The position numbers were made by a program, and so were the translations under genes. 64,000 nt of DNA from positions 310,001 through 374,000 of the forward strand of contig JAAFYY010000001.1 in the NCBI GenBank assembly GCA_014284505.1, written 5' to 3'. Under the pieces are notes generated by a model. The model was given only the letters and a program-made list of their open reading frames with translations. It was not told where the DNA came from and did not search any database. How positions within the stretch are numbered: the stretch's first letter is position 1; each line of letters begins with the position of its first letter. The DNA comes from Streptacidiphilus sp. 4-A2. Lineage in GTDB: Bacteria > Actinomycetota > Actinomycetes > Streptomycetales > Streptomycetaceae. Positions 46,308-63,606 of this stretch are shown here, piece after piece.

Positions 46308-47178
46308 TCAGTACCGGTGGAAGCCGCGGCCGGATTTGCGGCCGAGGAGGCCGGCGTCGACCATGCGCTGGAGCAGCGGGGGTGCGGCGTAGAGGGGTTC
46401 TTTGTATTCGTGGTACATGGATTCGGCGATGGAGACGATGGTGTCCAGGCCGATGAGGTCGCACAGGCGCAGGGGGCCCATGGGGTGGGCGCAGCCGGCT
46501 TCCATGCCCTTGTCGATGTCTTCGGCGGTGGCGACGCCGGTTTCGAACATGCGGACGGCGGAGAGCAGGTAGGGCACCAGGAGGGCGTTGACGACGAAGC
46601 CGGCGCGGTCGCGGGCGCGGATGGGTTCCTTGCCCAGGGCGGTGCGGGCGAAGTCCTCGGCGCGGGTGACGGTTTCGGCGGAGGTGGTGAGGGTGGGATG
46701 ATCTCGACGAGCTTCTGTACCGGGGCGGGGTTGAAGAAGTGGACGCCGAGGACCTGTTCGGGGCGGGAGGTGGCCGAGGCGAGTTTGACGATGGGGATGG
46801 AGGAGGTGTTGGAGGCGAGTATCGCGTCCGGGCGCTGGACGACCTTGTCGAGGGTCTGGAAGATCGCGGTCTTGATGTCCTCGCGTTCGGCGACGGCCTC
46901 GATGACCAGGTCGCGGTCGGCGAAGTCGGCGAGCTCGGTGGTGAAGGTGATGCGTTCCAGGGCGGCGTCGCGGTCCTCCTGGCTGAGCTTGCCCCGGCGT
47001 ACGGCGGTGTCCAGCGAGCCGGTCAGCCGCCCCGGCCCAGCTCCAGCGCCGCCCCGTTCGCTTCGCAGACCTTGACGTCCAGCCCGCCGGTGTCCAGCCC
47101 GGCCCGGGCGAACACCTCCGCGACACCGGACCCCATGAGGCCGCAGCCGACGACCCCTACCCGCACGATGTCGCTCAT
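46308..47178 (-). CDS. 3-hydroxybutyryl-CoA (3-hydroxyacyl-CoA) dehydrogenase, two frameshifts
   Basis: NAD-dependent oxidoreductase of about 290 aa. It starts MSDIVRVGVVGCGLMGSGVA. The second half of the Rossmann domain can be read after a missing base near 47030 (RRGKLSQEDRDAALERI, then ILASNTSSIPIVKLA). VLGVHFFNPAPVQKLVEI carries the catalytic His. The C-terminal helical domain (GFVVNALLVPYLLSAVRMFE, GLLGRKSGRGFHRY) follows a second missing base near 46698. Last gene of the minus-strand catabolic operon. Chain-length preference cannot be read. Confidence 0.9.
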
Positions 47179-47193
47179 TACCTCGTCCTTCGT

Positions 47194-47243
47194 TCGCTGA
47201 TGCGGGAGTTTCGCTGATGCGGGAGTTTCGCTGATGCGGGAGT
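47194..47243 (-). repeat. 17-bp tandem repeat x3 upstream of the 3-hydroxyacyl-CoA dehydrogenase
   Basis: Three consecutive copies of TCGCTGATGCGGGAGTT (last copy ends differently), ending 16 bp before the start codon region. It sits between two genes of the same operon and could be slippage or a control element. Confidence 0.7.
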
Positions 47244-47297
47244 GCAGTGACGGCGGCCCGCAGCGGTTCGACCGGTGCGGGCCGCCGGCTGCTCAGC

Positions 47298-48467
47298 TCA
47301 CGACGCGGCGGGCAGGGCGAGTACTCCGGTGCCCCGCTTGATGAGCTCGTTGGACACGATCAGGCGCTGGATCTCGCTCGTGCCCTCCAGATCCGGTCGA
47401 CGCGCAGTTCGCGGTAGAGCCGCTCGACCGGGTAGGAACGGTCGTAGCCCCGGCCGCCGAAGATCTGCACGCAGCGGTCGACGACCCGGCCGGAAGCCTC
47501 GCTCGCGGACAGTTTCGCGATGGACGCCTTGGCGTGCACCGTCTTGCGCTCGGTCCCCGGCTGGTCCGCCTCCCACGCGACCTGGTGGGTGTAGGCGCGG
47601 TTGACCGCGATGTCCACCGCGCAGTCCGCCAGCATCGCCTGGATCATCTGGAACGAGGCGAGCGGCGCACCGAACTGCTCGCGCTTCACCGCCCAGTCGC
47701 GTGCGGCGTCCAGGGCGCGCTCGGCCGCGCCGATGGTGCGCGCGGCGATCATGAGGCGCTCCTCGGTGAACCAGGAGCGGGTGATGTCGTAGCCCGGCCG
47801 AGGCCGCCGAGCAGGTTCTGCTCGGGGACGTACACGTCGGTGAAGGTGAACTCGGGGTGCTCGTAGACGAAGGTGTGCATGAAGCGCGGGGTGCGCTTGA
47901 CCGCGATGCCCGGGGTGTCCTTGTCGACCAGGAACAGGGTCGGGGCGCGGTCCTCGCCCGCGGCGGCGAGCACGATCATGAAGTCGGCGTGGTCCCCGAC
48001 GGTCACGAACCACTTCTCACCGTTGAGCAGCCAGCCGCCGCCGGCCTTGGTGGCCGTGGTCTGCTGGTTCTGCGGGTCGGAGCCCGCGCCCTCCTCGCTG
48101 ACCGCGTAGCAGTCCCGGCGGGCGCCGCGGATGACCGGGACCAGGTAGCGCTCGCGCTGTTCGGGGGTGCAGAAGCTCAGCGCGTTCGCCGGACGCCAGA
48201 CCATGTCCCACAGTGCCCGGTCAGCTTGCCGAGCTCCTCCTGCACCACCACCTGCTCGGTGACGGTCAGTCCGGCACCGCCCCACTCGGCGGGCATGTTG
48301 ACGGCCTGGAGCCCCGAGGCCAGGACCGCGTCGCGGACCTTGGCGTGGATCTCGGGCGGCAGTCCGTTGTCGCGCTCGCAGTCGTCCTCGAACTGCGAGA
48401 TGAACAGGTACAGGTCGTGCGCCGCCGACTTGAGGCCGGCCAGGCGCGGTGAGTAGCTGAAGTCCAT
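47298..48467 (-). CDS. Acyl-CoA dehydrogenase, three frameshifts
   Basis: FAD-dependent dehydrogenase of about 390 aa. N-terminal helices (SPRLAGLKSAAHDLYLFISQ) lead to the FAD-binding strand YAVSEEGAGSDPQNQQTTAT and WLLNGEKWFVTVGDHADF. C-terminal blocks are SWFTEERLMIAARTIGAAER, QIFGGRGYDRSYPVERLYRE and EGTSEIQRLIVSNEL with the usual Glu. Frame changes near 48225, 47800 and 47390. In operon with the acyl-CoA synthetase upstream and the 3-hydroxyacyl-CoA dehydrogenase downstream. A second member of the family lies at 60875 in the divergent operon. Confidence 0.9.
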
Positions 48468-48539
48468 GGCTGTGCTCCTCCTGGGAGTGATGCGAACGGA
48501 TGTGCTGCGCACGGGAGTGAGGGGTGAACGGGTGGGCGG

Positions 48540-50675
48540 TCAGGCGAGTACCGCGCGGGCGTCGAGGGCCAGGACGCCGCGAGGGCCACCAGCAGGGGGT
48601 TGACTTCGAGTTCGGCGATCTCGGGGTGCTCGGCCGCGGCCGCCGCGACGGCGCACACGGCCTGGGCGGCCGCGGCCAGGTCCAGCGCCGGGCGACCGCG
48701 CAACCCGTCGAACAGGGCGCTGCTGCGCAGTGAGCGCAGCAGCCGCCGCGCAGCCTGCGGGCCGATGGGGGCGAGCGCGAACGCGGTGTCCTTGAGCGTC
48801 TCGGTGGCGGTGCCGCCGAGGCCGACCATGACCACCGGACCGAAGCGCGGGTCGAGCCGGACGCCGACAATCAGCTCGACGCAGTCGCGCAGGTCCGCCA
48901 TCTCCTCGACCGAGTAGGCCGGGGGATCCCGGAGCCCGCGAACGCGGCGTCCATCCGCTCCCAGGCCGCCGCCAGCGCGTCCTGGTCGGGCAGGCCGAGC
49001 GCGACGCCGCCCGCGTCCGACTTGTGCAGCAGGTGCACCGCCTTGAGGGCGAAGGGCCCGGTCAGGGAGCGGGCGGCGGCGCGGACCTCCGCACCGGTGC
49101 GGGCGGGTGCGGCTGCGGGGAAGTCCAGTCCGTGACCGGCCAGCAGCTCGCGTACCGCGAAGTAGCCGACGTCCGCGAGTGCGGGGCGGGCCGGCGGCAG
49201 CGCCCCGACGGCGGTGGCGGTGACACCGTCGGCCGGAACGTCCGAGCAGAGGGCGGCCAGGGCCCGGGCGGCGTCCTCGACCGCGTCGAAGACCGGGATC
49301 CGGCGTCGGACAGGACGGCGCAGGTGGGCGAGTCCGGGTACATGCTCTGCGCCACCAGCGGACGGTCGCCCCCGGCGTACCGGTCGGCGATCCCCCGCGC
49401 GGCCGCCGTCTCGCCGTCGCCCAGCGCGCCGCCGAGTCCGGCGCCCTGCGTCGCCTCCGGGTGCGAGCGGTCGGCCGAGTAGCCGCCGAAGTAGCCGGTG
49501 AGCAGCACGCCGTCGATCCCGGGTGCGTCCAGCAGCGCGGCCGTCGTGGTCGCGTAGGAGGCAGGCTCCTGTTCGCCCATGCCCGCCAGGTCGACCGGGT
49601 TGCCGGTCGCGGACTGCTCCCAGAGTCCGGTCAGCAGCTCGGCCTGCACCTGGTCGGGCAGTTCCGGGACGCTGAGCCCCGCCGCCTCAAGGGCGTCCGC
49701 GGCCAGCGCCCCGTGTCCGCCGCCGTCGGTGAGTACCGCGACGCGCCGGCCCGCGGCCCGCCGACCGGTGCCGAGCGCGGCCAGGACGGTGGCCAACTCC
49801 CTTGGGGTGGAGACCTGGTGAATGCCGGTGTCGCGGCAGACCGCGGCGATGACGTCGGCCGGGGTGGTCATCGCGCCGGTGTGGGAGAGCGCGCCGCGGG
49901 CGGAGGCGGCACCACGGCCGGCGGTCATCAGCACGACCGGCTTGGGTGAGCGGGCGGCGGCCTGCGCGAAGGCCCGGCCGTCCGCGAAGTCCTCCGCGTA
50001 GACGGCGATGACCTCGGTGCCCTCGTGCCGGGCGCAGTCGTCCACCAGGTCGGCCAGGGTGACATCGGCCTGGTTGCCCAGGGAGACGAAGCGGGAGAAG
50101 CCCGCCGACCGGGGCCGCAGCCGCAGGCCGAGCTCCAGGGCGAGGTTGCCGCTCTGGCTCAGCAGCGCCACAGTTCCCGGGTCGAAGGGGTCCGAGGCGA
50201 GGTAGAGGCCGCTGGTGTTGTCCACCAGGCCGAGGCAGTTGGGGCCGACCAGTACCCCCGCCGCCCGGACCCGCTCGACGGCCGCCTGCTGCCGGGCTTG
50301 TCCGGCGGAGCCGGTCTCGCCGAAGCCCGCGGTGATCGCCACCACGGCGCGGGCGCCGGCGCCAGGGCGTCGTCGAGGGCGTCGTCGAAGGCGGCCGCGG
50401 GCACGCAGAGGACCGCGAGGTCGATGGGTGCGCCGATCTCGGTGGCACGGGTGGGGCCGCCTGTCCGAGGATCTGTCCGCCCCGGCGGTTCACCAGATGG
50501 ACCGGCCGGTGCCGGGGCCCGCGCAGGGCCTGCCTGGCGATCGCGCCGCCCCACTTGGACGGGTCCGCGCTCGCGCCGATGACGGCGACGGCCGCGGGTG
50601 CGAACAGGGGGGTCAGATCGCGTCGGCCGCCGGTGCACCCGCGGCGGTCGCGGTCACAGTCGTGACGGTGGTCAT
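48540..50675 (-). CDS. ADP-forming acyl-CoA synthetase (acetate--CoA ligase family), several frameshifts
   Basis: Single-chain nucleoside-diphosphate-forming CoA ligase of about 711 aa. The CoA-binding domain is FAPAAVAVIGASADPSKWGG. The ligase domain has VGPNCLGLVDNTSGLYLA, ALLSQSGNLALELG and the phospho-His loop in TDGGGHGALAADALEAAG. The ATP-grasp end has LLHKSDAGGVALGL, FGPVVMVGLGGTATE and IAELEVNPLLVAL. Frame changes near 50620, 50460, 50350, 49300, 48930 and 48580. ATG at 50675, 8 nt after the ferredoxin stop. It would activate the carboxylic acid formed by the divergent operon's aldehyde dehydrogenase. Confidence 0.85.
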
Positions 50676-50683
50676 GGCCGTCC

Positions 50684-50875
50684 TCACTTCCCCAGCCGCA
50701 GCGCGGTGTTGGGGCAGCGGCCGACCGCGTCACTGGCGGCCGCCAGGTCGGTCGGCTGCAATTCCCGCGACCGGACGCTCGCGTAGCCGAACTCGTCGAG
50801 GTCGATGAGGGTCGCCGCCGCTTCCTGGCACAGGCCGTAGCCCTGGCAGCGGGTGGGGTCGAGCAGCAGTTTCAT
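50684..50875 (-). CDS. Small ferredoxin (3Fe-4S type)
   Basis: 63-aa soluble electron carrier. Cys spacing is CQGYGLC (C-x5-C) near residue 10 and a single CP near residue 55 (VGRCPNTALRL). That is the pattern of actinobacterial 3Fe-4S ferredoxins that serve P450 or oxygenase systems. ATG overlaps the NuoF-like stop (ATGA). It may carry electrons between the NuoF-like flavoprotein and the Rieske oxygenase or another partner. Confidence 0.9.
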   Translation of the reverse strand: MKLLLDPTRCQGYGLCQEAAATLIDLDEFGYASVRSRELQPTDLAAASDAVGRCPNTALRLGK

Positions 50876-52223
50876 GATCGCCTTCCGGGGTGTCGCCGGT
50901 CCTGGTCCGGGACCGGTTGCGGTGTGCGGCAGTTGACGCAGGGCACGGACGTCCCGCGATCGGCGGTGTGCGCGTCGAGCAGGGCGGGGAAGTTCGCCGC
51001 GAGCGTCCCGGCCAGCCCTGCCGCCGCGTCCAGCAGCCCGCAGGCGCCGCGCCCTGGCAGCGTCCGCGCCCAGCGACCGAGGGCCTCGCGGTCCGCGCCG
51101 GTCGCCGTGCCGTCAGCCACCCTGGCGAGGGTGGCCGCGAGGGCGCGGGTGCCCGACACGCAGACGCCGCACTGCCGGGAGGACTGCTCGGCAAGGTAGC
51201 CGAGGGCCTCGGCGACCACGGCCACCGGGCACTCCTGCGGGCCGATGAGGCGGATCGCGGCGCAGCCAGGGGCGGCCCTGGACCCGGTGCCGGCCCGGGC
51301 GCGGGGTCGATCAGCAGGTCGAGTGCGTCGCCGCGGTGGATGCCGCCGAACAGGCCGCCGACCATGACCGCCCGGATCCGGCCGGTGCCGGCGGTGCCCA
51401 GAACGGCGGCCGCCAGCTCACGCAGTGAGGTTCCGCGTGGCACCTCGTGGAGCTCCTGGGCCACGCCGGACCCGACGGCGGCGGTGGTGACGGTGACAAG
51501 TCGGGTGTCGGCCGGGAGCCCCGCCGCGACCAGCGCGATCTGGGCGAGGGTCTCCACATTGGAGACCAGCGTGGGCACACCGCCGACGCCCTGCTCATAG
51601 GCGCGCGGCGGCTTGGCGGTCGGCAGGGCGGGCCCGCCGTCCAGGAAGCGGACGGCCGCGCTCTCCTCCCCCGCCACATAGCTGTGTTCGACCTCGGCGA
51701 CGTCGATCACCGTCTGCGGCCGGGGATCCCGGGCGAGCCGTTCCGCCAGGGCGGTGCGTACCGCTCCGGCGGAGGCCGGATCGGAGACATAGACATGGGC
51801 GCGCCGGGCGCCGATGATCCGGCAGGCGTGTGACAGGCCGTCAAGTACCAGATGGGGACGGTGGCGGAGCAGATAGCGGTCCTTGACCGAGCCCGGCTCG
51901 CCCTCCTCGCCGTTGGCCACGGCGATGGGGCTGACGCCCTGGGCAAGGGCGTTGTCCCGGACCGTGGCCAGTTTCACCGCGGCGGGGAAGCCCGCGCCGC
52001 CGCGGCCGCGCAGGTCGGCCTCGGCCAGCGCGGTGAGCAGCGCGGCCGGAGCGGGGCTCGGGCCGGGGCCGGTCCGGTGACCCAGCCGGTCGCGGTGCGC
52101 CCGCAGGTCCTCGGGCCGCCCCGGATGCTCCCCGGTCAACGGACCGGCGAGGGAGCGGATGGAGAAGTCGGGGGCCTGCCGGGTCCGGTCGGGTATCGCC
52201 CGGGTGGTGCGTAGGGTGCTCAA
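50872..52223 (-). CDS. NuoF-like NADH-binding flavoprotein, one frameshift
   Basis: About 450 aa related to the FMN/NADH subunit of complex I. Seen: the Gly-rich nucleotide loop LRGRGGAGFPAAVKLA, ANGEEGEPGSVKDRYLL, the FMN region VAGEESAAVRFLDGGPALPT and the SLBB-like VGSGVAQELHEVPRGTSLRE. A C-terminal Fe-S helical segment has Cys in SSRQCGVCVSGTRAL. A frameshift lies near 51255. A TTG start overlaps the upstream stop (TTGA). No other Nuo subunits are present, so with the ferredoxin it probably forms a dedicated NAD(P)H-ferredoxin reductase. Confidence 0.82.
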
Positions 52224-52780
52224 CTTCCGCCTTCCTGCGTGGGATCGGCCGGCTGCGTGGGATCGGCCGATTGCGTGGGATCGGCCGGCTGCGGCGCGTG
52301 CGTGGCCAGCCATGCGCTCAGCCGGGCGACTGTCGCGGCCAGTACCGTGCGGTCCTGCTCCGTCTCCCGGTAGCCGGCGCCGGGCAGACCGATCAGCATC
52401 CGGTGGTGTTCGAGGACCACCTCGCCGACGAGCAGCGCCGCCGTCGCAAGCTCCCGGTCGGTCCCGTCGGTCCGGTCGGTCCCGTCGGTCCGGTCCGCTC
52501 GGCCGGCTTGGTCCGCTCGGCCGGCTTCCGTGACCCGGTCGGCGACCTGATGCGTCAGCTCGGAGATCTCGTGCAGATAGCGGCGCCAGGAGCGGCCGGT
52601 GCCGCGCAGTACGAGCCGCTGCACCTTCCGCGCCTCCGAGGAGGTCCCGGCCGACGCTTCGGGTGGTGTCTCGGCGTTTCGCAGGGTCCGTCGCAGCACG
52701 GCGACGGCTTCGGGGAGTTCCCGTTCGGGTTCGGGGGTCAGGGCGAGCCAGGCAAGCCTGGAGCCGGCGTGTGCGGTCAT
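52220..52780 (-). CDS. Unknown protein heading the catabolic operon
   Basis: Intact 186-aa protein, not recognised. Helical core with HAGSRLAWLALTPEPERELP, EARKVQRLVLRGTGRSWRRY and VGEVVLEHHRMLIGLPGAGY. Two low-complexity stretches: an internal ADRTDGTDRTDGTDRE repeat and a C-terminal ADPTQ repeat (18-bp DNA units, 52235-52290). Its stop overlaps the TTG start of the NuoF-like gene. The position suggests an accessory role in the electron-transfer unit. Confidence 0.6.
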   Translation of the reverse strand: MTAHAGSRLAWLALTPEPERELPEAVAVLRRTLRNAETPPEASAGTSSEARKVQRLVLRGTGRSWRRYLHEISELTHQVADRVTEAGRADQAGRADRTDGTDRTDGTDRELATAALLVGEVVLEHHRMLIGLPGAGYRETEQDRTVLAATVARLSAWLATHAPQPADPTQSADPTQPADPTQEGGS

Positions 52781-52914
52781 GTCACCTCGGCTACCGCCGA
52801 CCGCCGTTCGGTGTCCCGGCGTGCTGATCGGCGTCAAGAGCAGGGACGTGGGGATGGGTGGCCGCAGCCTGCGGCGGCGGTTCGCCGGAGCATCGCGGTG
52901 CGGTGGTCGCACAC

Positions 52915-52940
52915 GCTAACTAATCAGTCAGTCAGTCAGC
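52915..52940 (-). promoter_or_regulatory. TetR-type box, copy 1
   Basis: GCTAACTAATCAGTCAGTCA followed by GTCAGC. The CAGT-repeat core with flanking TAAC/TAAT resembles sites of TetR-family repressors. It lies about 135 bp upstream of the minus operon's first gene and shares most bases with copy 2. Confidence 0.55.
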
Positions 52941-53032
52941 AAGGGCTCGGCCGGGATCCATACGGCCGGATTGTCACCAGGAGATTTCCACGACGTGAAC
53001 CCTTGACAGGGCAGAGGCAAGCGAGCACTGTC

Positions 53033-53057
53033 GCTAACCAATCAGTCAGTCAGCCAG
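53033..53057 (+). promoter_or_regulatory. TetR-type box, copy 2
   Basis: GCTAACCAATCAGTCAGTCA followed by GCCAG, about 25 bp downstream of a TTGACA -35-like hexamer and about 130 bp upstream of the Rieske gene. Placed to block transcription of the plus operon when the TetR regulator is bound. Confidence 0.55.
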
Positions 53058-53186
53058 TCCGAGGCTCGGCCCGATGCCCGGCTCCGACCGGCGGCACCCG
53101 ACTGCGCCCAAGGGAAGCCGAGCAGGCAGAGCCGCTCGCATGCCTCCCGCCGTCCGCCCATACCCAACAGCTTCAGGAGCGTGACC

Positions 53187-54408
53187 ATGCCTTCCCCTCC
53201 GACAGCGTCGGGCACCACGACAGCTCCGCAGCAACGACCCGAGTCCTCACCCAGGCCCGCGCCCAGGCCGCTCCCCCCGGCCCTCGCCGGGGCTACTACA
53301 CCGATCCGGCCACGGCCGCCGCCGAACAGCAGCGGATCTTCGAGAAGTCCTGGCAGCTGGTCGGCCACGAGTCGGACCTGCCCGTCGCCGGATCCCGCTT
53401 CGCCGCGCCCGTCGCCGGCCGGGAGGTGCAGCTGGTACGCCGCGAGGACGGCGGGGTCAGCGGACACCTGAATGTCTGCCGGCACCGCGGCGCCCAACTC
53501 CTCACCCAGGCCGAGTCGAAGCAGGTCGAGCCCGCGATCCGCTGCCCCTACCACGGCTGGACCTACCACCTCGACGGCACCCTGGTCGGCGCCCCCGAGG
53601 GCAGGCAGATCCCCTGCCTGGACAAGCCCCGGCTCGGGCTGTTCCCGGTGCGGGTCGAGTCCTTCCTCGGCTTCCTGTTCGCCAGCCTCGACCCGGACGC
53701 CGTCCCGCTCGCCGAGTCCTGCGCCGGTCTGGTCGAGGCGGTGGGCCGCTACTGCGGACCCGATCTCACCGTGGTCGGCAAGCACCGGATCCACAGCAGC
53801 GAGAACATCGAGCGGCAGAACGCCAACTGGAAGGTGGTGGTCGACAACTTCCTGGAGGGCTACCACGTTCCCGTCGCCCACCCGGGTCTCATGCGCCTGT
53901 TCGACTACCAGAACTACACCGCCGAGCCGCAGTCCGCCTACACCCTCTTCGAGGTCCCGCTGCGGGAGAAGCCGTCGAGCAACCCCACCGAGCGCCTCTA
54001 CCAGCGGCTGGCCTCCCCCATGCCGGGGCTGGGCGAGGCCGACCGCCGGGTCTGGCGCTATGTCGCGATCTACCCCAACACCCTGCTCGACTTCTACCCG
54101 GATCACGTGCTGGCCTGGTCGGTGCTGCCGGACGGGCACGACGGAGCCACCCTGCCGGGCGCCTACTACGCCCGGCCCGGTGCCGGGCTGCGCACCCGGC
54201 TGGCCCGGCGGCTGAACATCCACATCGGCTGGGTCACCAACGACGAGGACGCCGAACTCGTCGCCCGGGTGCAGCGCGGCCTGTCGACCCCGGGTACCAG
54301 CCGGGACCGCTGTCGCACCGGGAGAACGCGGTCGCCTGGTTCCACGAACGGATCAGGAAGGACCTGGCCGGCGCGGTAGAGTTCGACGGGGCGGCGGCGG
54401 AGGAATGA
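53187..54408 (+). CDS. Rieske-type aromatic-ring-hydroxylating/demethylating oxygenase, alpha subunit, two frameshifts
   Basis: Terminal oxygenase of about 407 aa. The 2Fe-2S Rieske centre is CRHRGAQL ... CPYHGW. The mononuclear iron site is NWKVVVDNFLEGYHVPVAHP, with Asp/His ligands. Frame changes near 53240 and 54295; the corrected C-terminus reads HRENAVAWFHERIRKDLAG and stops at 54408. Start ATG 53187 behind CAGGAGCG. The TetR start overlaps its stop (ATGA). Single-component alpha subunits of this layout often demethylate quaternary amines such as betaines, which fits the amine genes downstream. Substrate is inferred. Confidence 0.88.
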
Positions 54409-55100
54409 CAGTGATCGCAGAGCGCGGGGCCGATCCGTCCGAACGGGCCGGGCGGACCGAGGCGACACGCCAGGCCATCCTCCAGGCAGCCTGCGAGGTC
54501 ATCGCCGAAGCCGGCCTGGAGTCGGTCCGGATGCGGATGATCGCCGACCGCGCCGCGGTGTCCACCGCGCTCCTGCACTACCACTTCGCCAACCGCGAGA
54601 CGCTCTTCCTCGCCGCGCTCAAGTACTCGTACGCCAACGCCGGGGCCCAGGACTACGGTGACGAGCCGCCGGCCCGCCACCCGCATGCCTGGCAGCTGGC
54701 CAAGGCGGTCGAGCTGTGCCTCCCGGTGACCACCGAGCTGCGCCGCGACTTCCTGCTCTGGCAGGAGCTCTCGCTGCGTGCCAGCCGCGACGCCGACTCC
54801 GCGGCGGCCGCGGCCGAGCTCTACACCGACCTGGCCGACTGGATCGCCGAGATCGTCCGCGGCGGCATCGCCGCAGGCGAGTTCCGACCGGTCGGCGCCG
54901 CTCCCGAGGCAGCCGCCGTACAGGCCGCGCACCTGGTCATCGCGCTGACCCAGGGATACGGCAGTGCGCTGCTGCTCGACGGCGCGGTGCTGGACCAGGA
55001 AGCGGCGCGCGACGCGATCTGGACCACCCTCTCGCTCTCCCTCGGCCTGCCCGCCGAGCGCCCCGCGGTGAACGGCGTCCCGAGGCCGACCGTCCGCTGA
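54405..55100 (+). CDS. TetR-family regulator
   Basis: Intact 231-aa repressor. The N-terminal HTH is typical (ATRQAILQAACEVIAEAGLE, then VRMRMIADRAAVSTALLHYH, FANRETLFLAALKYS). The C-terminal ligand domain has FLLWQELSLRASRD. Co-translated with the Rieske gene (ATGA overlap). It is the likely binder of the two boxes in the divergent region; its ligand is probably the amine or a derived intermediate. Confidence 0.92.
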   Translation: MTVIAERGADPSERAGRTEATRQAILQAACEVIAEAGLESVRMRMIADRAAVSTALLHYHFANRETLFLAALKYSYANAGAQDYGDEPPARHPHAWQLAKAVELCLPVTTELRRDFLLWQELSLRASRDADSAAAAAELYTDLADWIAEIVRGGIAAGEFRPVGAAPEAAAVQAAHLVIALTQGYGSALLLDGAVLDQEAARDAIWTTLSLSLGLPAERPAVNGVPRPTVR

Positions 55101-55304
55101 TCCGGGCCCGACCGCTTCTCCCCGCCTCCCCCGCCTCCCCGCTCCGACCACGCGCGCCCCGACCGCCGCGCGCCCCGAATCACCGTGCCACGGCGACAAA
55201 CCGCCATACCGCCATACCCCACAGCGACATACCGCTGTGCTGCCGTGTGGCTGTACCGCCGTGCCCGCAGTAGTCCGCGACCCCCGCTCCGGGAGGACCA
55301 TGAC

Positions 55305-56480
55305 ATGCGCCGCCGAACCCGATCCCCACTGTCCTCCCCACCCCCACCCCCACCACGCTCCGGACCGGATCGCAGGTCCCTGCTGCGCGCCGCCGCTGCC
55401 GGCTCGCTCGGCCTGACCCTCACCGGCTGCGCCTACATCCCGCACGCCGAGAGCGACGCGGCCGCCGCCGTGGACGCCGAGCCACCGCTGCCGATGGAGG
55501 TCGACGGCCCGCTCGTCTACTTCAACTGGGCCGACTACATCGACCCGACGGTCAAGGCCGGCTTCTCCGAGGAGTACGGGGTCGAGGTCATCGAGTCCAA
55601 CTTCGACTCGATGGAGTCGATGATCGCCAAGATGGACGCCGGCAACACCTACGACATCATCTTCCCCTCCGCGAAGTGGACCCAGCTGCTGTGGCAGGGC
55701 GGTCAGTTGCACAAGCTCCCGCTGCACCTGCTGCGCAACGGCGACGCCGTGTTCGCCCACTACGGCTACTTCGACAACCCCTGGTACGACCCCGGCTCCG
55801 CACACAGCGTGCCGTTCACCATGTACAAGACCGGGATCGGCTGGCGCAAGGACAAGCTCGGCGAACTGACCGGCTCCTGGCGGGACATGTGGGACGGGAC
55901 GGCCACCGGCCGGGCCTTCCTGCTCGACGACCGCGACGAGGTGCTCGGATTCGCCTCGCTCCAACTCGGCTGCGGCGCCTACGCGGTCGGGCACGAGCAG
56001 CTCGACCGCATGGCCTCCCTGGTCCAGAACCTGCGCCCGCGGCTGCGGGCCTTCGACAGCGACGACTACGACAACCTGCTCAACGGCGACGCCTGGCTCA
56101 CCCAGGCCTGGAGCGGCGACATGACCTCCGTCGTGCAGCAGGCCAAGGACCCGTCGGTGTACGGATTCGAGGCAGCGAAGGAGGGAGCGCCGGTGAACAC
56201 CGACTGCTACGCGATACCGGCCAACGCACAGCACCCGGGCACCGCGATGCTCTTCATCGACTACATGCTGCGCCCGGAGAACGTCGCCAGGAACATCGCC
56301 TACATCGGCTACCCGATGCCGGTGCACGGCAGCGAGCACGGCTACGAGCAGCTGGTCTCCACCCTGCCCGACTGCGTGGTCACCGAGCAGGACCTGGCCG
56401 CGAACCTGGTGTTCACCAACGGCACCCCGGCCCAGGAGGCCGCCCGGGACGCCTGCTGGACGAACATCCAGGCCGGGTGA
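55305..56480 (+). CDS. potD: Polyamine-type ABC transporter substrate-binding lipoprotein
   Basis: Intact 391-aa exported solute-binding protein. A Pro/Ser-rich head is followed by a twin-arginine motif (DRRSLLRAAAAGSLG) and lipobox LTGC at about residue 45. The mature protein has the PotD/PotF hallmarks LVYFNWADYIDPTVKAGF, YDIIFPSAKW, VPFTMYKTGIGWRKD and LTQAWSGDM. ATG with GGGAGGACC 5 nt upstream; four linked transport genes follow the usual D-B-C-A order. Ligand probably a polyamine or related amine. Confidence 0.9.
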   Translation: MRRRTRSPLSSPPPPPPRSGPDRRSLLRAAAAGSLGLTLTGCAYIPHAESDAAAAVDAEPPLPMEVDGPLVYFNWADYIDPTVKAGFSEEYGVEVIESNFDSMESMIAKMDAGNTYDIIFPSAKWTQLLWQGGQLHKLPLHLLRNGDAVFAHYGYFDNPWYDPGSAHSVPFTMYKTGIGWRKDKLGELTGSWRDMWDGTATGRAFLLDDRDEVLGFASLQLGCGAYAVGHEQLDRMASLVQNLRPRLRAFDSDDYDNLLNGDAWLTQAWSGDMTSVVQQAKDPSVYGFEAAKEGAPVNTDCYAIPANAQHPGTAMLFIDYMLRPENVARNIAYIGYPMPVHGSEHGYEQLVSTLPDCVVTEQDLAANLVFTNGTPAQEAARDACWTNIQAG

Positions 56481-56485
56481 GCGCG

Positions 56486-57441
56486 ATGTCCCCCTCCGCC
56501 CCCGCCGCCCCGGTACCGGCCGACGACACCGCGGCACCCCCGACCCGCACCGGGCCGGGACCACGCGCCGGACCGGCTCCCGGCCCAGGCCCCGCAGCGG
56601 ACCCCGGATCTGGGACCTGCTGGCCCTGCCCGGCGCGCTGTGGATGTCCGTCTTCTTCATCGCCTCCCTGCTGCTGGTCGCCGCGCTGTCCTTCGGCACC
56701 ACCAACGACCTGGGCAACGCCTACTTCGGACACAGCCTCGCCAACATCGAGGCACTGGCCGACCCGGCCTACCGGACCGTGCTGCTGCGCTCGCTCGCAT
56801 ACGCGGTGCTCACCTCGGCGATCTGCCTGGTGATCGCCTACCCGGTGTCCTACGCGATCGCGCTGCACTCCGGGCGCTACAAGAACGCCCTGATCGCGAT
56901 GGTCGTCGTGCCGTTCTTCGCCAACTACCTGGTGCGCATGTACGGCTGGTCCACGATCCTGTCCGACCAGGGCCCGGTGCTCAGCCTGCTCTACCGGCTC
57001 GGCGTGCCGCGCTCCTTCCACATCGTCAACACCGGCCCCGGGGTGGTCGCGGGACTGGTCTACGGCTTCGCCGTGTTCATGGTCCTGCCGCTGTACGCGG
57101 CGATGGAGCGGATGGACACCTCCCTCATCGAGGCGGGCCGCGACCTGTACGGCGGGCCGCTGCGCACCTTCCTGAAGGTCACCGTCCCGGCGACCAGGCA
57201 GGGCGCGCTGGCCGGGATCGTCCTGGTCTTCCTGCCGGCCATGGGCGACTTCGTCTCCGCGCAGCTGATGGGAGGACCCAACCAGATCATGATCGGCAAC
57301 CTGATCCAGGAGCAGTTCTACGGCGGTCAGAACTGGCCGCAGGGCGACGCGCTCACCATGCTGCTGATGGCCGTCCTGCTCATCGGCATGGCCGGCTACC
57401 TGCGCCGGGCCCGCAAGGACGAGGCGGAGGCCGTCCGATGA
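56486..57441 (+). CDS. potB: Polyamine-type ABC transporter permease, one frameshift
   Basis: Permease of about 318 aa with six helices. A Pro-rich N-terminus of about 40 residues leads, after a missing base near 56590, to IWDLLALPGALWMSVFFIAS. The ABC permease EAA loop reads MDTSLIEAGRDLYGGPLRTF. It starts 5 nt after potD and overlaps potC by 4 nt (ATGA). Confidence 0.88.
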
Positions 57442-58295
57442 GCGCCACCCGCCGTCCGGCGGCCACCGCCCGGCGCCGCCGGCGCGGCGTGGAACGCAAG
57501 CCCCTGTTCGCCTTCGCCTGCACCGCGGTGTTCTTCTTCCTGCTCTACCTGCCCATCGGCGCGGTGGCCCTGTTCTCCTTCAACGGGCAGAAGTCCCTGG
57601 TCGTCATGAAGGGCTTCTCGCTCCGCTGGTACCGGGCCTTCTTCCACGACCAGCAGCTGCTCGCCTCGCTGCGGATGAGCCTGGAGGTCTCCACCCTGGC
57701 GACCGCCTGCGCCCTGGTCATCGGTGTGGGTCTGGCACTGGGCCTGGTGCGCTCCCGCGGCAGGGTCGGCTCCTACGCGGCGTTCATCATGCTGGTCCCG
57801 CTGATCACCCCCGAGATCGTCACCGGCGTCGGCTCGCTGACCCTGTTCAAGGGCATCGGCATGACCCTGGGGTTCGGCACGGTGACCCTGGCCGAGGTCA
57901 CCTTCTCCATCTCCTACGTCACCGTGATCCTGCGCTCGCGGGTCGCGGCGCTCAACCCCGAGACCGAGGAGGCCGCGCTCGACCTCGGGGCCACCCGCTG
58001 GCAGGCGCTGCGCCTGGTCACCCTGCCGGCGCTGCTGCCCGCGATCATCTCCGCCGGGGTCCTGGTCTTCGCCATGATCTTCGACGACTTCGTGCTCGCC
58101 TTCTTCACCACCGGCGTCAGCCCGGAGCCGCTCGCGGTGAACATCTACTCGCAGATCCGCCTCGGCGTACAGCCGACCATCAACGCTGTCGGCACCCTGA
58201 TGCTGCTCGGCTCCCTCGCCCTGATCGCCCTGGCCATCGTGGTCCCCCGGCTGTTCGGTCGCACCGGCGGCCTTGAGATCCTGACAGGAGACTGA
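57438..58295 (+). CDS. potC: Polyamine-type ABC transporter permease
   Basis: Intact 285-aa permease. Six helices (LFAFACTAVFFFLLYLPIGA and on) and the EAA loop NPETEEAALDLGATRWQALR. Characteristic PotC features are FSFNGQKSLVVMKGFSLRWY and ITPEIVTGVGSLTLF. Translationally coupled to potB. Confidence 0.92.
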   Translation: MSATRRPAATARRRRRGVERKPLFAFACTAVFFFLLYLPIGAVALFSFNGQKSLVVMKGFSLRWYRAFFHDQQLLASLRMSLEVSTLATACALVIGVGLALGLVRSRGRVGSYAAFIMLVPLITPEIVTGVGSLTLFKGIGMTLGFGTVTLAEVTFSISYVTVILRSRVAALNPETEEAALDLGATRWQALRLVTLPALLPAIISAGVLVFAMIFDDFVLAFFTTGVSPEPLAVNIYSQIRLGVQPTINAVGTLMLLGSLALIALAIVVPRLFGRTGGLEILTGD

Positions 58296-58297
58296 CC

Positions 58298-59418
58298 TTG
58301 TCGGTTACCGAAGTGCCCGCGCCCTCGCCCGCACCGCGCAGCACGGAGTCCGGGGAGACCCCCGCGGTCCGTCTCGACCATGTCTCCAAGCGGTTCGAGC
58401 AGACCTTCGCCGTGCGCGACCTCGAACTGGACATCGCCCAGGGGAGTTCTTCTCCCTGCTCGGCCCCTCCGGCTGCGGCAAGACCACCAGCCTGCGGATG
58501 ATCGGCGGCTTCGCCGATCCGACCGAGGGCTCGATCCTGCTCGCCGGACACGACGTCACCGGCCTGCCGCCGAACAAGCGCGACGTCAACACCGTGTTCC
58601 AGTCCTACGCCCTGTTCGACCATCTCTCGGTCGCCGACAACATCGCCTTCGGGCTCAAGCGCAGGCGGGTGGAGAAGCAGGAGCTGCGCCGCCGGGTCGC
58701 CGAGGCCCTGGAACTCGTGCAGCTCGCCCACCTGGCCACCCGCAAGCCACGCACCCTCTCCGGCGGCCAGCGGCAACGCGTCGCCCTGGCCCGCGCCCTG
58801 GTGAACCGGCCGGCCGTGCTGCTGCTCGACGAGCCGCTCGGCGCCCTGGACCTGAAACTGCGCCGGCAGATGCAGATCGAACTCAAGCAGATCCAGCGCG
58901 AGGTCGGCATCACCTTCGTGTTCGTCACCCACGACCAGGACGAGGCGCTGACCATGTCCGACCGGCTCGCCGTGATGAACGGCGGAGTCATCGAGCACTG
59001 CGGCACCCCCGAGGACGTCTACGAGCGGCCCGCCACCCGCTTTGTCGCCTCCTTCATCGGCACCTCGAACCTGATGCCCGGGGTCTACCGGAACGGCTCG
59101 GTGGTGCTGGAGTCCGGCCAGGCCGTGCCGGTCGGCAGGCGGGCCGGACTGGCCGAGGGCGCGGAGGTCTCGCTCTCGATCCGGCCGGAGAAGATCTGGC
59201 TCTCCGAGCTGACCCCCGGGATGGCCCGCGCCACCGGCGTGCTGCGCGACACCGTGTACTGCGGCGCGACCACGACCTATCTGGTCGAACTCGCGGCCGG
59301 CACCACCCTCGCCGTGCTGGAGCAGAACACCGCCAGATCCCGGATGGAGGACCGCTGGAGCAACGGCCAGCAGGTCGAACTGGGCTGGCTGCCCGAGCAC
59401 AGCCTGGTGCTCGGATGA
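58298..59418 (+). CDS. potA: Polyamine-type ABC transporter ATPase, one frameshift
   Basis: ATP-binding subunit of about 373 aa. One G missing in the run near 58445 restores GEFFSLLGPSGCGKTTSLRM (Walker A). Q-loop FQSYALFDHLSV, signature LSGGQRQRVALARAL, Walker B LLLDEPLGALD and H-loop FVTHDQDEA follow. The C-terminal TOBE domain is LSIRPEKIWLS. TTG start 2 nt after potC, preceded by CAGGAG. Confidence 0.93.
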
Positions 59419-60748
59419 CCGGCCCGGGGACGGCGGCGTACGACGCGATCGTCCTGGGTGCCGGGCTGGCCGGTCTCTCGGCAGCCCGCGACCTGGCCGC
59501 GGGCGGGGCGGAGGTCCTCGTCGTCGAGGCCCGCGACCGGGTCGGCGGACGCGTGGAACAGGCGGCGCTGCCCGACGGGCGGCTGGTCCAGCTCGGCGGC
59601 GAAGTCGTCGGCCGCGCCCACACCGCCTATCTGCGCCTGGTCGAGGAGCTGGGGCTCACCCTCACCCCCAGCTATGTCGCCGAACCCGGCAGCCTGACCA
59701 GGGCCACCCCGAGGGCGCCTCCACCGGCGGCGAACCGCACTGGTTCGGCCCCGGTGACAGCGCCTGCCACGCCCGGGTCACCGAGCGGTTCGTCAAGCTG
59801 GCCGCGGAGGTCGACCCCGACAACCCGTGGCGCCACCCCGACGCGGCGCGGCTGGACGCATCCGGCGTGGGCGCCTGGCTGCGTCTGGCCGGCGCGACCC
59901 CGGCCGTGGTGCGGCTCTGGGAGATCGAGCAGCTCGGGCTGGCCGGCGGCTCGGTCGAGCGCACCTCGCTGCTCGCCGCGCTGCGCAAGAACGCCGCGGT
60001 GCCCAGCGCGGGGCACTACGACTACGAGGACTGGGAGGGCCTGCGGGTCGCGGAGGGCTCGGCCACGGTCGCGCTGCGACTGGCCGAGGGGCTCGGCCAC
60101 CGGGTCCGGCTCGGCTCCCCGGTCGAGGCGGTCACCGTCGCCGGCGGCCGGGCCGGGTGCACGGTACGGCTGGCCGGCGGCGAGACCCTGCGCGCCTCGG
60201 CCGTGGTCTGCGCGCTGCCGGTGGGTCCGCTGCGGCAGGTGCACATCTCGGGTGTCTCCGACGCCCGGCTCGGCTCCCTGCACGCGCAGCGCCAGGCCCG
60301 CGCGGCCAAACTCGCCGTCGCCTATGCCGATCCCTTCTGGCGGGCCCGCGGGGCGAACGGACTTTCCGAGTCCGAGCATGTCCTCGGTTCGACCTGGCCG
60401 CAGGGGTACGCGGTGCTCTCGGCCCTGATCCCGCCCGAGCGCCTCGGCGTCCTGCTCGGCATCCCGCCGCAGCTGCGGGAGCAGGAGCTGCTCCGGGAGA
60501 TCGCCGATCTCTACGGCGACCAGGCGCTGCACCCGCTCGCCCTGTATCTGCGCATGTGGGGCACCGACCGCTGGACCCAGGGCTATGTGACCCAGTGGGT
60601 ACCCGGCGACGTGATGCGGGTCGGCCCGCTGCACGGCACCCACGAACCGCCGTTCTATGTCTGCGGATCCGACCAGTGGGTGGCCGGATACCTGGAGGGC
60701 GCCGTCCGCACCGGACGCGCCGCCGCAGCCGCGCTGCTCAGCCGCTGA
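59415..60748 (+). CDS. Flavin monoamine oxidase family protein, one frameshift
   Basis: FAD amine oxidase of about 444 aa. The dinucleotide motif AIVLGAGLAGLSAARDLAAG and the GG-doublet DRVGGRVEQAALPDG are at the N-terminus. A missing base near 59698 restores GEPHWFGPGD. The C-terminal FAD block is PFYVCGSDQWVAGYLEGAVR, with the aromatic motif DRWTQGYVTQW. Expected to turn a primary or secondary amine into an aldehyde plus H2O2. Start overlaps the potA stop (ATGA), linking uptake to oxidation. Confidence 0.88.
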
Positions 60749-60843
60749 ACCCACAGGACCCACTCAACCCACTCAACCCACTCAACTCATTCAGACTGCT
60801 GAACCCGCTGAACCCGCTCAATCCGCTGAACCCACTGAACCCG
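60745..60843 (+). repeat. 9-bp tandem repeat, eleven units
   Basis: Eleven in-register units of CTGAACCCG/CTCAACCCA starting in the amine oxidase stop region and ending about 30 bp before the next start. Two blocks differ at the third and ninth base. In one forward frame it would read as Leu-Asn-Pro repeats, but no gene uses that frame. Confidence 0.8.
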
Positions 60844-60874
60844 AAGAGCATCCGCCGACAGAAAGGCGCACACC

Positions 60875-62085
60875 GTGAGCGCGCACCCCGCCCCCACCGC
60901 GGCCGCGGGCCCGGACTTCCCGTGGTCCCTGCCCGAGTACCCCGCCCCCGAGCTGCGCGCCCTGGCCGAACGCGCCCGCCCTTCATCGAGGAGGAGTGCG
61001 TCCCGCACGAGGTCCAGGCCGAGCGCAACCACGGCCGGCTCCCCCAGGCCGTCGTCGACCGGGTCAGGCAGGCCGCGATCGAAGCCGGCCTCAACGGCGG
61101 CCGGCACTCCCGGGAACACGGCGGCCAGGACTGGACCGCACAGCAGTACGTCGCCGTGCACGAGCAGCTGGGACGCAACACCAACGGCATCTGGTGGTGG
61201 ATCCCGGACGCCTACAACGTGCTGCGCTCCGGCAGCCCCGAGCAGATCGAGCGCTATCTCATCCCCTCGATCCGGGGCGAGGCCGCGCTCTCCTACGCGG
61301 TGACCGAGGCGGACGCCGGCTCCGATCCCTCCGGTATCACCACCACGGCCGTCCGGGCCGCTGACGGCTGGCTGCTCAACGGCGAGAAGTGGTTCGTCAC
61401 CAGCGGCGACGTGGCCGTGGCGCACCTGGTCGCGGCCGACACCGCGGAGGGCGTGACGATCTTCATCGTGCCGGCCGACGCCCCCGGGGTCAGCACCGCC
61501 GACGACCCGCCCTTCACCCACTCCTTCCCGCACGGGCACCCGGCGATCCGCTTCGAGGACGTGCGGCTCGGCCCGGAGGCGGTGATCGGCCCGGTCGGCG
61601 GGGGCAGCGCGTTGCAGAACGCGTGGTTCACCGAGGAACGGCTGGGCATCGCGGTGCACTGCGTCGCCGCGATGAACCGGCTGCTGGAGGAGGCCGTGGC
61701 CTGGGCCGCCGGGCGGGTCCAGGGAGGCGTGCGGATCTACGACCACCAGGGCGTCTCCTTCCCGCTGGCGGACTCGGCCGCCGACGCGGCGGCCGCACGG
61801 CTGATGGTCTGGGACGTCGCCCGGCACATCGACCAGGGCGCGGATCCGAAGATCGTCCATGCCAAGGCGTCCATGGCCAAGCTCTTCGCCAGCGAAGCCG
61901 CCAACCGCTGCGCGGACCGGGTGCTCCAGGTCTTCGGCGGCCGCGGCTATATCCGCGACTACCCGGCCGAACGTTTCTTCCGCGAGCTGCGGGTCGACCG
62001 GATCTGGGAGGGGACCAGCGAGATCCAGCGGCTGATCATCGCCCGTTCGCTCGAACGGCGGGGCGTCACCGCCGTCATCGGCTGA
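60875..62085 (+). CDS. Acyl-CoA dehydrogenase, one frameshift
   Basis: FAD enzyme of about 403 aa. GTG start with GAAAGGCG upstream. One missing C near 60980 restores ARPFIEEECVPHEVQAERNH. FAD/substrate blocks are LSYAVTEADAGSDPSGITTT and WLLNGEKWFVTSGDVAVAH. The C-terminus has QVFGGRGYIRDYPAERFFRE and IWEGTSEIQRLIIARSL with the catalytic-type Glu. Paralog of the gene at 47298. Inference: it desaturates the acyl-CoA made from the amine-derived acid. Confidence 0.92.
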
Positions 62086-62176
62086 CCCGTCCACACCACG
62101 GACGGCGGCACGGCCGCACCACGGCGAGACCGGACAGCCACCACAGACAGTGACACCGGACAAGGAGGGCACGGCG

Positions 62177-63606
62177 ATGGCCGAGGAGCACAACCGGATT
62201 CTGATCGGCGGCGCATGGCGCCGGGCCGGAGGCGAGGAGAGCGATCCGGTCGTCGACCCGGCGACCGGCGAGCAGTACGCGAGCGTCCGGTCGGCCGACG
62301 CGCGGGACGTCGACGCCGCCGTCGACGCGGCCCGCTCCGCCTTCGGCGCCTGGCGGGCGACCACCCCCGCGGAACGCTCGTCAGCGCTGCTGGAGCTCGC
62401 CGGGGCGCTGGCGCAGGACGCCGCCGAGCTGGCCGGCATCGAGTCGCGCAACGCCGGCAAGCCGATCTCGGCCGTGCCGGAGGAGATCGGCTACGCCCTG
62501 GACAACCTCAGGTTCCTGGCCGGCGCCGCCCGCACCCTGACCGGCCCGGTCGCCGCCGAGTACACCCGGGCGCGACCTCCTACGTCCGCCGGGAGCCAGT
62601 GGGCGTGGTGGGGGCGATCGCGCCCTGGAACTATCCGCTGATGATGGCGGTCTGGAAGCTCGCCCCGGCCCTGGCGGCCGGCTGCCCGGTGGTGCTCAAG
62701 CCCTCCGAGTGGACACCGCTCAGCACGCTGCGGCTCGGCGAGGCGGCGGCCCGGATCCTGCCGCCCGGCGTGGTCAACATCGTCACCGGCGCGGGCCCGG
62801 TCGGCGCGGCGCTCAGCGCGCATCCGGGAGTCGACCTGGTCTCGGTGACCGGCTCGCTGGAGACCGGTCGCCGTATCGCCGCCGCGGCCGCACCGACGGT
62901 CAAGCGGCTGCACCTGGAACTCGGCGGCAAGGCCCCGGTCGTGGTGTTCGACGACGCCGACCCCGCGGCCGTCGCGGCCGCGGTACGGACCGCCGGTTTC
63001 GGCAACGCCGGACAGGACTGCACCGCGGCCTGTCGCGTCATCGCCACCCCCAAGGTCTACCCGGCGGTCCTGGAGGCGGTCGCCGCCGCGGCGGGCGCCC
63101 TGCGCTGCGGGGATCCGGCCGACCCGGCCACCGAGCTCGGCCCGCTGGCCTCCCACCGGCACCGCGACCGGGTGGCCGGTCTGGTCGCCCGGGCGCTGGC
63201 GGCCGGTGCCCGGCCGGTCGCCGGCGCGAGGACGCCCGACGGCCCCGGCGCCTTCTACCCGGCGACCGTGCTGGCCGGCCCCGGCCAGGGCGCGGAGATC
63301 GTGCAGCAGGAGGTGTTCGGCCCGGTGGTCACCGTCCAGCGCGCCGCCGACGAGGAGCAGGCCCTGGCCATGGCCGCGGACGTGCCCTTCGCCCTGGCCG
63401 CCTCGGTCTGGACCCGCGACGTCGGCCGGGCCATGCGCGCGACCGCCGCGCTGCGCTTCGGCGCGGTCTGGGTCAACGACCATCTGACGAGCGTCTCGGA
63501 GATGCCGCACGGCGGCTTCAAGCAGTCCGGCTACGGCAAGGACAACTCGACCGGCGCCATCGACCACTACACCGAGCCCAGGCACGTCATGCTGCGCTGG
63601 GACTGA
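62177..63606 (+). CDS. Aldehyde dehydrogenase (aminobutyraldehyde-dehydrogenase-like), one frameshift
   Basis: NAD(P)-dependent enzyme of about 476 aa. ATG with AAGGAGGGC upstream. One missing C near 62570 restores PGATSYVRREPVGVVGAIAP. Catalytic Glu in RLHLELGGKAPVVVFDDAD and Cys in FGNAGQDCTAACRVIATPK are visible. The C-terminus MPHGGFKQSGYGKDNSTGAI, then DHYTEPRHVM, resembles gamma-aminobutyraldehyde dehydrogenases. It would oxidise the aldehyde produced by the amine oxidase. Last gene of the plus operon. Confidence 0.92.

Follow-up and report, generated by a model that had tools for sequence, protein, structure and literature searches.

Two divergent operons lie at positions 46,308 to 63,606 of a 64,000-nucleotide stretch of DNA, hereafter the window, from the actinomycete Streptacidiphilus sp. 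4-A2 (assembly GCA_014284505.1, contig JAAFYY010000001.1, positions 310,001 to 374,000 of the forward strand). On balance, we judge these operons to be one conserved unit, likely repressed by its own TetR-family regulator and predicted from its sequence to serve the import and breakdown of an amine, which is most likely methylated (quaternary). The plus operon encodes a Rieske oxygenase, the TetR regulator, a PotDBCA-type importer, a flavin amine oxidase, an acyl-coenzyme A (CoA) dehydrogenase and an aldehyde dehydrogenase. The minus operon encodes a small conserved protein (SCP), a stand-alone NuoF-like flavoprotein, a ferredoxin, an ADP-forming CoA ligase, another acyl-CoA dehydrogenase and a 3-hydroxyacyl-CoA dehydrogenase. 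That the two operons form one conserved regulon is well supported, and the pathway is probably one of quaternary-amine catabolism in which SCP, the NuoF-like protein and the ferredoxin would serve as a module of the oxygenase. No published description of this gene unit was found among the literature matches listed.

Conserved linkage and gene content

An earlier note on this DNA had read the two operons as one regulon and had named a lack of conserved linkage in related genomes as a ground for refuting this; the linkage proved to be conserved. When one genome per species was scanned for 84,980 species, by a pattern-based and hence incomplete method, 46 loci with a Rieske oxygenase were found. 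All 30 loci with a Rieske protein more than 50% identical show the arrangement to the extent that their contigs cover it (24 from Streptomyces and six mycobacterial or from unclassified actinomycetes), and none of the 16 loci with more distant Rieske proteins does, five of these 16 stretches being shorter than 10 kb. Twenty further regions, taken around matches to SCP or the Rieske protein, all contain SCP and, except for one at a contig edge (L116), the Rieske gene. Among the 42 fully covered loci (window included; two duplicates and seven contig-edge loci left out), SCP, Rieske and TetR are each present in 42, the first two partly by construction because the loci were found with the Rieske or SCP as bait. 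The ligase and ferredoxin are present in 41, PotD in 40, PotB/C/A and the amine oxidase in 39, NuoF and the aldehyde dehydrogenase in 37 and the 3-hydroxyacyl-CoA dehydrogenase in 24.

An even sample of the class offers a test free of this bait effect. In it, the Rieske gene occurs in 8 of 394 genomes and SCP in 9, and all eight Rieske genomes also have SCP (chance probability 7e-16 if genomes were independent, which they are not); in the ninth (G293) SCP lies at a contig end and no Rieske was found elsewhere at E<=1e-80. SCP was present in 30 of 297 genomes of a family sample, with an adjoining Rieske gene in 25 of the 26 checked, the exception again being G293, cut by the contig end. A Rieske of this kind was found at E<=1e-60 in 9 of 14 genomes of the genus sample. 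On the linkage across the loci of relatives and the class sample, a chance neighbourhood of the two operons was rejected.

Gene order within the unit varies. The minus operon of most Streptomyces loci holds both acyl-CoA dehydrogenases and ends with TetR and the 3-hydroxyacyl-CoA dehydrogenase. In the window, as in the mycobacterial loci and the eight loci read from the same genus, TetR follows the Rieske gene; the window differs further in that one acyl-CoA dehydrogenase lies in the plus operon. Genes that switch sides yet remain within the unit argue for a joint function.

Every gene named in the earlier note was found in the window, in the order given and many of them frame-split. NuoF does not, as had been thought, open the minus operon: the SCP gene, previously overlooked, precedes it. 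The features are as follows.

46308..47178, minus strand: 3-hydroxyacyl-CoA dehydrogenase (3-hydroxybutyryl-CoA type), three frame pieces; ends the minus operon
47301..48467, minus strand: acyl-CoA dehydrogenase, orthologue of the ACAD2 of relatives, four frame pieces
48543..50625, minus strand: ADP-forming acyl-CoA ligase with CoA-binding, Succ_CoA_lig and ATP-grasp domains, four frame pieces
50684..50875, minus strand: single-cluster ferredoxin with a CXXYXXC(X)nCP motif; Pfam Fer4_15 in a relative
about 50905..52219, minus strand: stand-alone NuoF-like flavoprotein (Complex1_51K and NADH_4Fe-4S), two frame pieces; both domains in an intact relative
52220..52780, minus strand: SCP, without a Pfam family; heads the minus operon
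52916..52935, no strand: operator-like site 1, CTAACTAATCAGTCAGTCAG, 135 bp upstream of the SCP start codon
53003..53008, plus strand: TTGACA box, predicted -35 element of the plus operon; site 2 starts 31 bp further on
53034..53053, no strand: operator-like site 2, CTAACCAATCAGTCAGTCAG, 133 bp upstream of the likely Rieske start codon
53187..54408, plus strand: Rieske oxygenase, large subunit, with the DNFLEGYHVPVAHP motif
54405..55100, plus strand: TetR-family regulator; BetI-type C-terminal domain in the L005 orthologue
about 55301..56480, plus strand: PotD-like substrate-binding protein, start approximate
56536..57441, plus strand: PotB-like permease
about 57440..58295, plus strand: PotC-like permease, start approximate
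58304..59418, plus strand: PotA-like ATPase, two frame pieces
59439..60748, plus strand: flavin amine oxidase (monoamine oxidase/putrescine-oxidase family), two frame pieces
60937..62085, plus strand: second acyl-CoA dehydrogenase, ACADp
62177..63606, plus strand: aldehyde dehydrogenase (aminobutyraldehyde/betaine-aldehyde type), two frame pieces

Frame changes break eight of these genes (3-hydroxyacyl-CoA dehydrogenase, minus-strand acyl-CoA dehydrogenase, ligase, NuoF, Rieske, PotA, amine oxidase and aldehyde dehydrogenase) into two to four pieces each, with at least 13 frame breaks over about 17 kb in all. The Rieske gene has one break near its C-terminus and probably another near its N-terminus, and its stop overlaps the TetR start. 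The minus-strand acyl-CoA dehydrogenase matches the ACAD2 of relatives at 82-87% in three pieces and at 64% in its N-terminal piece. These breaks are likely assembly indels, a reading based on three observations: matches to class-I tRNA synthetases in this genome are likewise scattered over several open frames, the assembly (9.05 Mb in four contigs) has a completeness of 76.5%, and the homologues of the split genes in relatives are mostly in a single frame. We hold it to be very unlikely that the window genes are instead decaying pseudogenes and the unit non-functional in this strain. The density of breaks, an rpoB gene in one open frame in the same genome and an eroded copy of the cluster elsewhere would fit decay, but the split synthetase matches and the low completeness point to the assembly, and most genes of the other same-genus clusters give single uninterrupted matches; on these grounds decay was set aside as first choice.

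The eroded copy (L118:5190-14415, genome G570) retains Rieske, SCP and TetR near full length and partial NuoF, ligase, PotD, acyl-CoA dehydrogenase and aldehyde dehydrogenase genes, and PotB/C/A, amine oxidase and ferredoxin were not found in it. In five genomes (G627:C1:50317, G182:C1:227989, G173:C1:338933, G570:C3:8327248 and that of the window, G000:C4:362292) the cluster lies within about 0.4 Mb of a contig end, a placement that resembles that of accessory genes on Streptomyces chromosome arms; no systematic count was made, and the cluster of G427 is mid-contig. Directly beyond the aldehyde dehydrogenase gene, an open frame on the minus strand (63638-63985) contains GTSLATP, which we take to resemble the catalytic serine motif of subtilisin-like proteases.

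The intergenic region and its likely control by TetR

Both operons are likely held off by TetR at paired operator-like sites, as judged from the region between them. This region contains two 20-bp repeats, where none were expected from 100 shuffles of the window, and a search of the same genome that allowed up to 2 mismatches gave no further copies. In seven other genomes every site match falls in the corresponding intergenic region, bar one 2-mismatch match in G306. In 29 distinct loci the spacing of the two sites is exactly 57 bp, and a TTGAC box lies between them in all 28 of these loci for which the sequence was examined. The box lies 27 to 33 bp before the Rieske-proximal site in the 57-bp loci, the window and the mycobacterial loci, which would be the geometry expected for repression of the plus operon. 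In three loci (L107, L108 and L110) a weak second site lies at a distance of 69 bp, and L104, L105, L109, L111 and the mycobacterial loci have a single site. The recognition-helix region of TetR is near-identical in all 27 sequences compared. The orthologue in L005 carries a BetI-type C-terminal domain (TetR_C_6, PF13977; 62.4 bits against a cut-off of 27), and the match to the BetI equivalog stays below its cut-off (50.9 of 201.3 bits).

Several observations speak against this regulatory picture. A reversed control pattern gave 0-3 matches per genome, the sites of L115 and L121 are diverged, and no operator-like site was found in L106, nor in the contig-edge loci L012 and L116. In the window itself the sites are spaced 118 bp instead of 57 bp and are poorer palindromes, pairing at 12 and 10 of 20 positions where five sites of relatives scored 12-16, and a promoter of the minus operon was not identified. 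The regulon as such, already proposed in the earlier note, is upheld by the conserved linkage and by the operator-like sites between the operons. The absence of an enoyl-CoA hydratase and a thiolase, which that note had also pointed out, agrees with the gene lists, and in eight genomes no second operator site points to either gene, bar the single G306 match.

The Rieske oxygenase and its probable electron supply

The best solved relative of the Rieske protein is the carnitine monooxygenase CntA, followed by 3vca/4qup, which we take to be the stachydrine demethylase Stc2. All 31 cluster Rieske proteins share the stretch DN[Y/F]LEGYHVPVAHP and the bridging glutamate (CntA E205) before the first iron-ligand histidine. 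The residue at CntA position 203 is aromatic throughout (Tyr in 30 of 31, Phe in the window), the one aligned with Tyr225 is invariant, and so, in a weak alignment, is the one aligned with the iron ligand Asp323. An excerpt of PMC7948474 assigns the bridging glutamate of CntA to electron transfer and the aromatic residue 203 to a pi-cation contact with the ammonium group, and it separates by this aromatic residue clade Va (carnitine, choline, benzalkonium) from clade Vb (glycine betaine, stachydrine). The earlier note had inferred an oxygenase step for the carbon skeleton of the amine; these signature residues make an attack on a quaternary nitrogen more likely than the hydroxylation of a carbon skeleton.

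Not all residues fit. The Cys206/Cys209 pair of CntA, a Cys-X-X-Cys pair next to the catalytic iron, is replaced by Gly and Val in all 31 proteins and Phe319 falls on Thr in a weak C-terminal alignment, so that the pocket differs from that of CntA. The missing pair does not exclude membership of group V, since the pair is unique to some members of that group according to an excerpt of PMC10952381. The top NCBIfam match of the window Rieske, and of that of L106, is GbcA (NF058607), reached by the former with 120.4 bits against an equivalog cut-off of 670.

Electrons could reach this oxygenase through the NuoF-like protein and the ferredoxin of the minus operon. The NuoF-like protein has the flavin mononucleotide and 4Fe-4S domains of NuoF, as seen in relatives. 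The ferredoxin motif CXXYXXC was read in the window and in 25 of the 27 relatives extracted, the other two being unreadable (L014, wrong piece; L028, wrong match). It has a residue other than Cys at the variable position of CXX?XXC(X)nCP, the motif of ferredoxins associated with cytochrome P450s according to an excerpt of PMC6237146. No cytochrome P450 is among the cluster genes identified, the flanks not having been scanned for one, and the genes identified in the intact L005 cluster include no CntB/GbcB-type reductase, although no search was aimed at one.

The most informative locus in this respect is L106, from a genome of the same genus (G421), in which SCP, NuoF and ferredoxin stand on one side and Rieske and TetR on the other. 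In the 20 kb read there, ligase, acyl-CoA dehydrogenase, amine oxidase and an importer of this kind are all absent. Because NuoF and ferredoxin stay with the Rieske gene in L106 without ligase or acyl-CoA dehydrogenase, the better reading of these two is an electron chain of the oxygenase, and SCP, NuoF and ferredoxin are thus probably the oxygenase's own module and not parts of beta-oxidation. The earlier note had placed NuoF and ferredoxin correctly in the minus operon; what changes is how they are read. Behind TetR, L106 carries fragments of a glycine/sarcosine-oxidase-type flavoprotein, of PurU (formyltetrahydrofolate deformylase), of the beta subunit of electron-transfer flavoprotein (ETF) and of FolD, a setting that would suit N-demethylation with one-carbon (C1) transfer, to which we attach limited weight.

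This interpretation of the module has its own difficulties. The genes at L106:5605-8021 look like chimeras, through either local assembly loss or real deletions: the N-terminus of a flavoprotein is continued by the C-terminus of PurU, and the C-terminal domain of FolD is preceded by an N-terminus unrelated to it. Linked genes that look joined from different genes weaken L106 as a witness, and an amino-acid permease lies near its module. In addition, six of seven mycobacterial-type clusters (L024-L027, L029 and L117; the exception is L028) have no linked NuoF. The genome of L117 (G306) does carry an unlinked NuoF-like copy, 55% identical to that of L028. The neighbours of this copy (L157:4116-14536) encode an amidohydrolase, a Rieske ferredoxin, a ChsH2/thiolase-like protein, a P450 and a ferredoxin, and the whole resembles a further cluster for oxidative degradation.

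Alternatively, the NuoF-like protein and ferredoxin could serve the acyl-CoA dehydrogenases in place of ETF and not the Rieske oxygenase, as their sharing an operon with ligase and acyl-CoA dehydrogenase in the window and most loci would suggest. The L106 arrangement, the P450-type ferredoxin motif and the company of the unlinked G306 gene (Rieske ferredoxin, P450 and another ferredoxin) make this quite improbable. Carrying the oxygenase module further, we tentatively consider, with rather less than even confidence, that quaternary-amine Rieske oxygenases may have a second kind of electron supply, composed of a stand-alone NuoF-like flavoprotein, a P450-type [3Fe-4S]/[4Fe-4S] ferredoxin and an obligatory helical SCP. 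Such a module might be mobile between a betaine/C1 pathway (L106) and the importer-amine oxidase-CoA pathway of the window, with SCP as a new Rieske component, for example a docking or regulatory subunit.

SCP itself is recognized by invariant columns in 12 sequences (W-L-x-L-T-P-E-P-E...L-P, a central L-x-G...W...L and H-x-R-x-L-I-G-L-P-G). A profile search gave 1130 homologues at E<=0.001 among 7997 candidates scored; those named among the 120 matches listed are hypothetical or uncharacterized Streptomyces proteins, one of which also carries a TetR name in one source. An AlphaFold2 model of SCP is a five-helix bundle, for which no significant fold matches were obtained, and no Pfam family was found. 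SCP likely assists the oxygenase module, and the name would denote a new protein family for these uncharacterized homologues. The SCP of the window contains low-complexity inserts (RTDGTD and PADPTQ repeats, 52223-52540) that are absent from the other aligned sequences.

Substrate, pathway and relation to known systems

The enzymes around the oxygenase point to a small substrate. The nearest solved relatives are the polyamine-binding PotD/PotF for PotD, putrescine oxidase for the amine oxidase, 1wnb (a putative betaine aldehyde dehydrogenase) followed by 6c43 (a gamma-aminobutyraldehyde dehydrogenase) for the aldehyde dehydrogenase, 4-hydroxybutyrate- and 3-hydroxypropionate-CoA ligases (C3-C4 acids) and also a dimethylsulfoniopropionate (DMSP) lyase for the ligase, and short- and medium-chain acyl-CoA dehydrogenases for the ACAD1 of relatives. 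Against the NCBIfam cut-offs for aminobutyraldehyde dehydrogenase, the frame-broken aldehyde dehydrogenase of the window reaches 521 of 615 bits for NF010000 and 429 of 909 for TIGR03374. Taken together, the relatives of PotD, amine oxidase, aldehyde dehydrogenase, ligase and ACAD1 favour a short, polar and cationic substrate, probably with a C3-C5 carbon skeleton; our favoured guess is a C4 skeleton like that of gamma-butyrobetaine or an N-methylated putrescine. A long-chain or benzalkonium-type substrate was dropped as first choice because the relatives of importer, ligase and aldehyde dehydrogenase are of small-molecule types, and the long-chain amine suggested as a possibility in the earlier note is accordingly not supported.

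The polyamine-type relatives of PotD, of the amine oxidase and, for one of its two nearest, of the aldehyde dehydrogenase would fit a simple diamine: putrescine or cadaverine would enter through PotDBCA and be converted by a putrescine-oxidase-type enzyme and an aminobutyraldehyde dehydrogenase to an omega-amino acid and then a CoA ester, the Rieske oxygenase being a side activity. The binding protein gives evidence both ways. In the numbering of E. coli PotD, the window-type proteins (14 sequences) keep the residues aligned with Trp34, Trp229, Tyr293, Asp168, Glu171 and Asp257 and have Asp for Glu36, so that the acidic residues are conserved, but all 14 differ at Tyr85 (Lys/Gln) and Trp255 (Asn). 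In a profile of eight cluster amine oxidases a gap is found at Glu324 of putrescine oxidase, which we take to hold the distal amine. Moreover, the Rieske gene is present in all 42 loci (partly a result of the bait), whereas amine oxidase, importer and aldehyde dehydrogenase are each absent from some, and simple omega-amino acids should need neither a CoA ligase nor two acyl-CoA dehydrogenases. An excerpt of PMC9397018 also routes polyamine use in Streptomyces through gamma-glutamylation and GabT. Ordinary diamine or polyamine catabolism thus seems unlikely to us. Variation in the unit also bears on the pathway that we prefer: L027 has no importer, and G427 has a cluster and no amine oxidase of this kind in its genome at E<=1e-40, so the amine oxidase step is not always needed.

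The acyl-CoA dehydrogenase of the plus operon, ACADp, is about 50% identical to ACAD1 and ACAD2 and 75% to a protein in a second amine cluster of the same-genus genome G427. A diverged ACAD1 was considered and rejected, since a tree puts ACADp on a very long branch outside both groups and its nearest relative was found in another cluster. That second cluster (L150:232-13170, a stretch starting 3 kb after the PotA of the G427 cluster) encodes a GbcA-like Rieske, an aldehyde dehydrogenase, PotD- and PotA-like proteins, an Old Yellow Enzyme/FadH-type flavoenzyme, a cupin, a TetR and an acyl-CoA dehydrogenase, and the ACADp of the window may have come from an L150-like cluster.

For quaternary-amine catabolism, the following order of events can be proposed. 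PotDBCA would import the cation, and electrons would pass from NADH via the NuoF-like flavoprotein and the ferredoxin, as their conserved linkage suggests, to the Rieske oxygenase. This enzyme, judged by its signature residues, would cleave a C-N or N-methyl bond at the quaternary nitrogen, acting either at the outset or on a betaine intermediate late in the pathway. The flavin amine oxidase would then turn the freed or remaining amine into an aldehyde and the aldehyde dehydrogenase would convert this to the acid, from which the ADP-forming ligase would make an acyl-CoA. Beta-oxidation would be entered through the acyl-CoA dehydrogenases and, in loci that have it, the 3-hydroxyacyl-CoA dehydrogenase, with hydratase and thiolase supplied from elsewhere. 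Binding of a ligand would free the repressor, and both operons would switch on together.

Among known systems, CntA/CntB (group V, clade Va) is closest through its oxygenase, with which the bridging glutamate, the aromatic residue 203, Tyr225 and, in a weak alignment, Asp323 are shared. The window Rieske differs in lacking the cysteine pair and apparently in other pocket residues. Its gene neighbours differ as well, being a NuoF-like protein, a CXXYXXC ferredoxin and SCP, with no CntB-type reductase among the genes identified (no aimed search was made), and it is linked to Pot, amine oxidase, ligase and acyl-CoA dehydrogenase genes. OxyBAC, which dealkylates benzalkonium, is associated with an amine oxidase and acts on a long-chain disinfectant, whereas the importer and ligase relatives of the window point to small, polar substrates. 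According to the excerpt of PMC7948474 its Rieske belongs to clade Va and has Phe at 203, the residue also found in the window. GbcA/GbcB and Stc2 form clade Vb, which the same excerpt describes as having Asn at 203 where the window-type proteins have Tyr or Phe; GbcA is the top family match of the window and L106 proteins, with scores of about 120 bits against the cut-off of 670.

With polyamine utilisation in Streptomyces (GlnA3, EpuRII, Pot-like importers, GabT) the unit has a Pot-type importer and an aminobutyraldehyde-dehydrogenase-type enzyme in common, but neither a gamma-glutamylpolyamine synthetase nor a transaminase is among the window genes identified, and the regulator, of Lrp/AsnC type there according to the excerpt of PMC9397018, is a TetR in the window. 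The ligase, finally, has among its best solved relatives, next to the ADP-forming 4-hydroxybutyrate- and 3-hydroxypropionate-CoA ligases, the DMSP lyase DddX, which it matches over nearly its whole length and which acts on an onium carboxylate as stated in an excerpt of PMC8163506.

If these predictions are true, a TetR-switched degradation pathway would be assigned to a group of quaternary-amine-type Rieske oxygenases of soil actinomycetes and mycobacteria, and these oxygenases would gain a new reductase-ferredoxin pairing together with a new protein family, SCP. The operator pair and the natural variants of the unit, namely the minimal module and the cluster without amine oxidase, offer a direct way to test what each part does.

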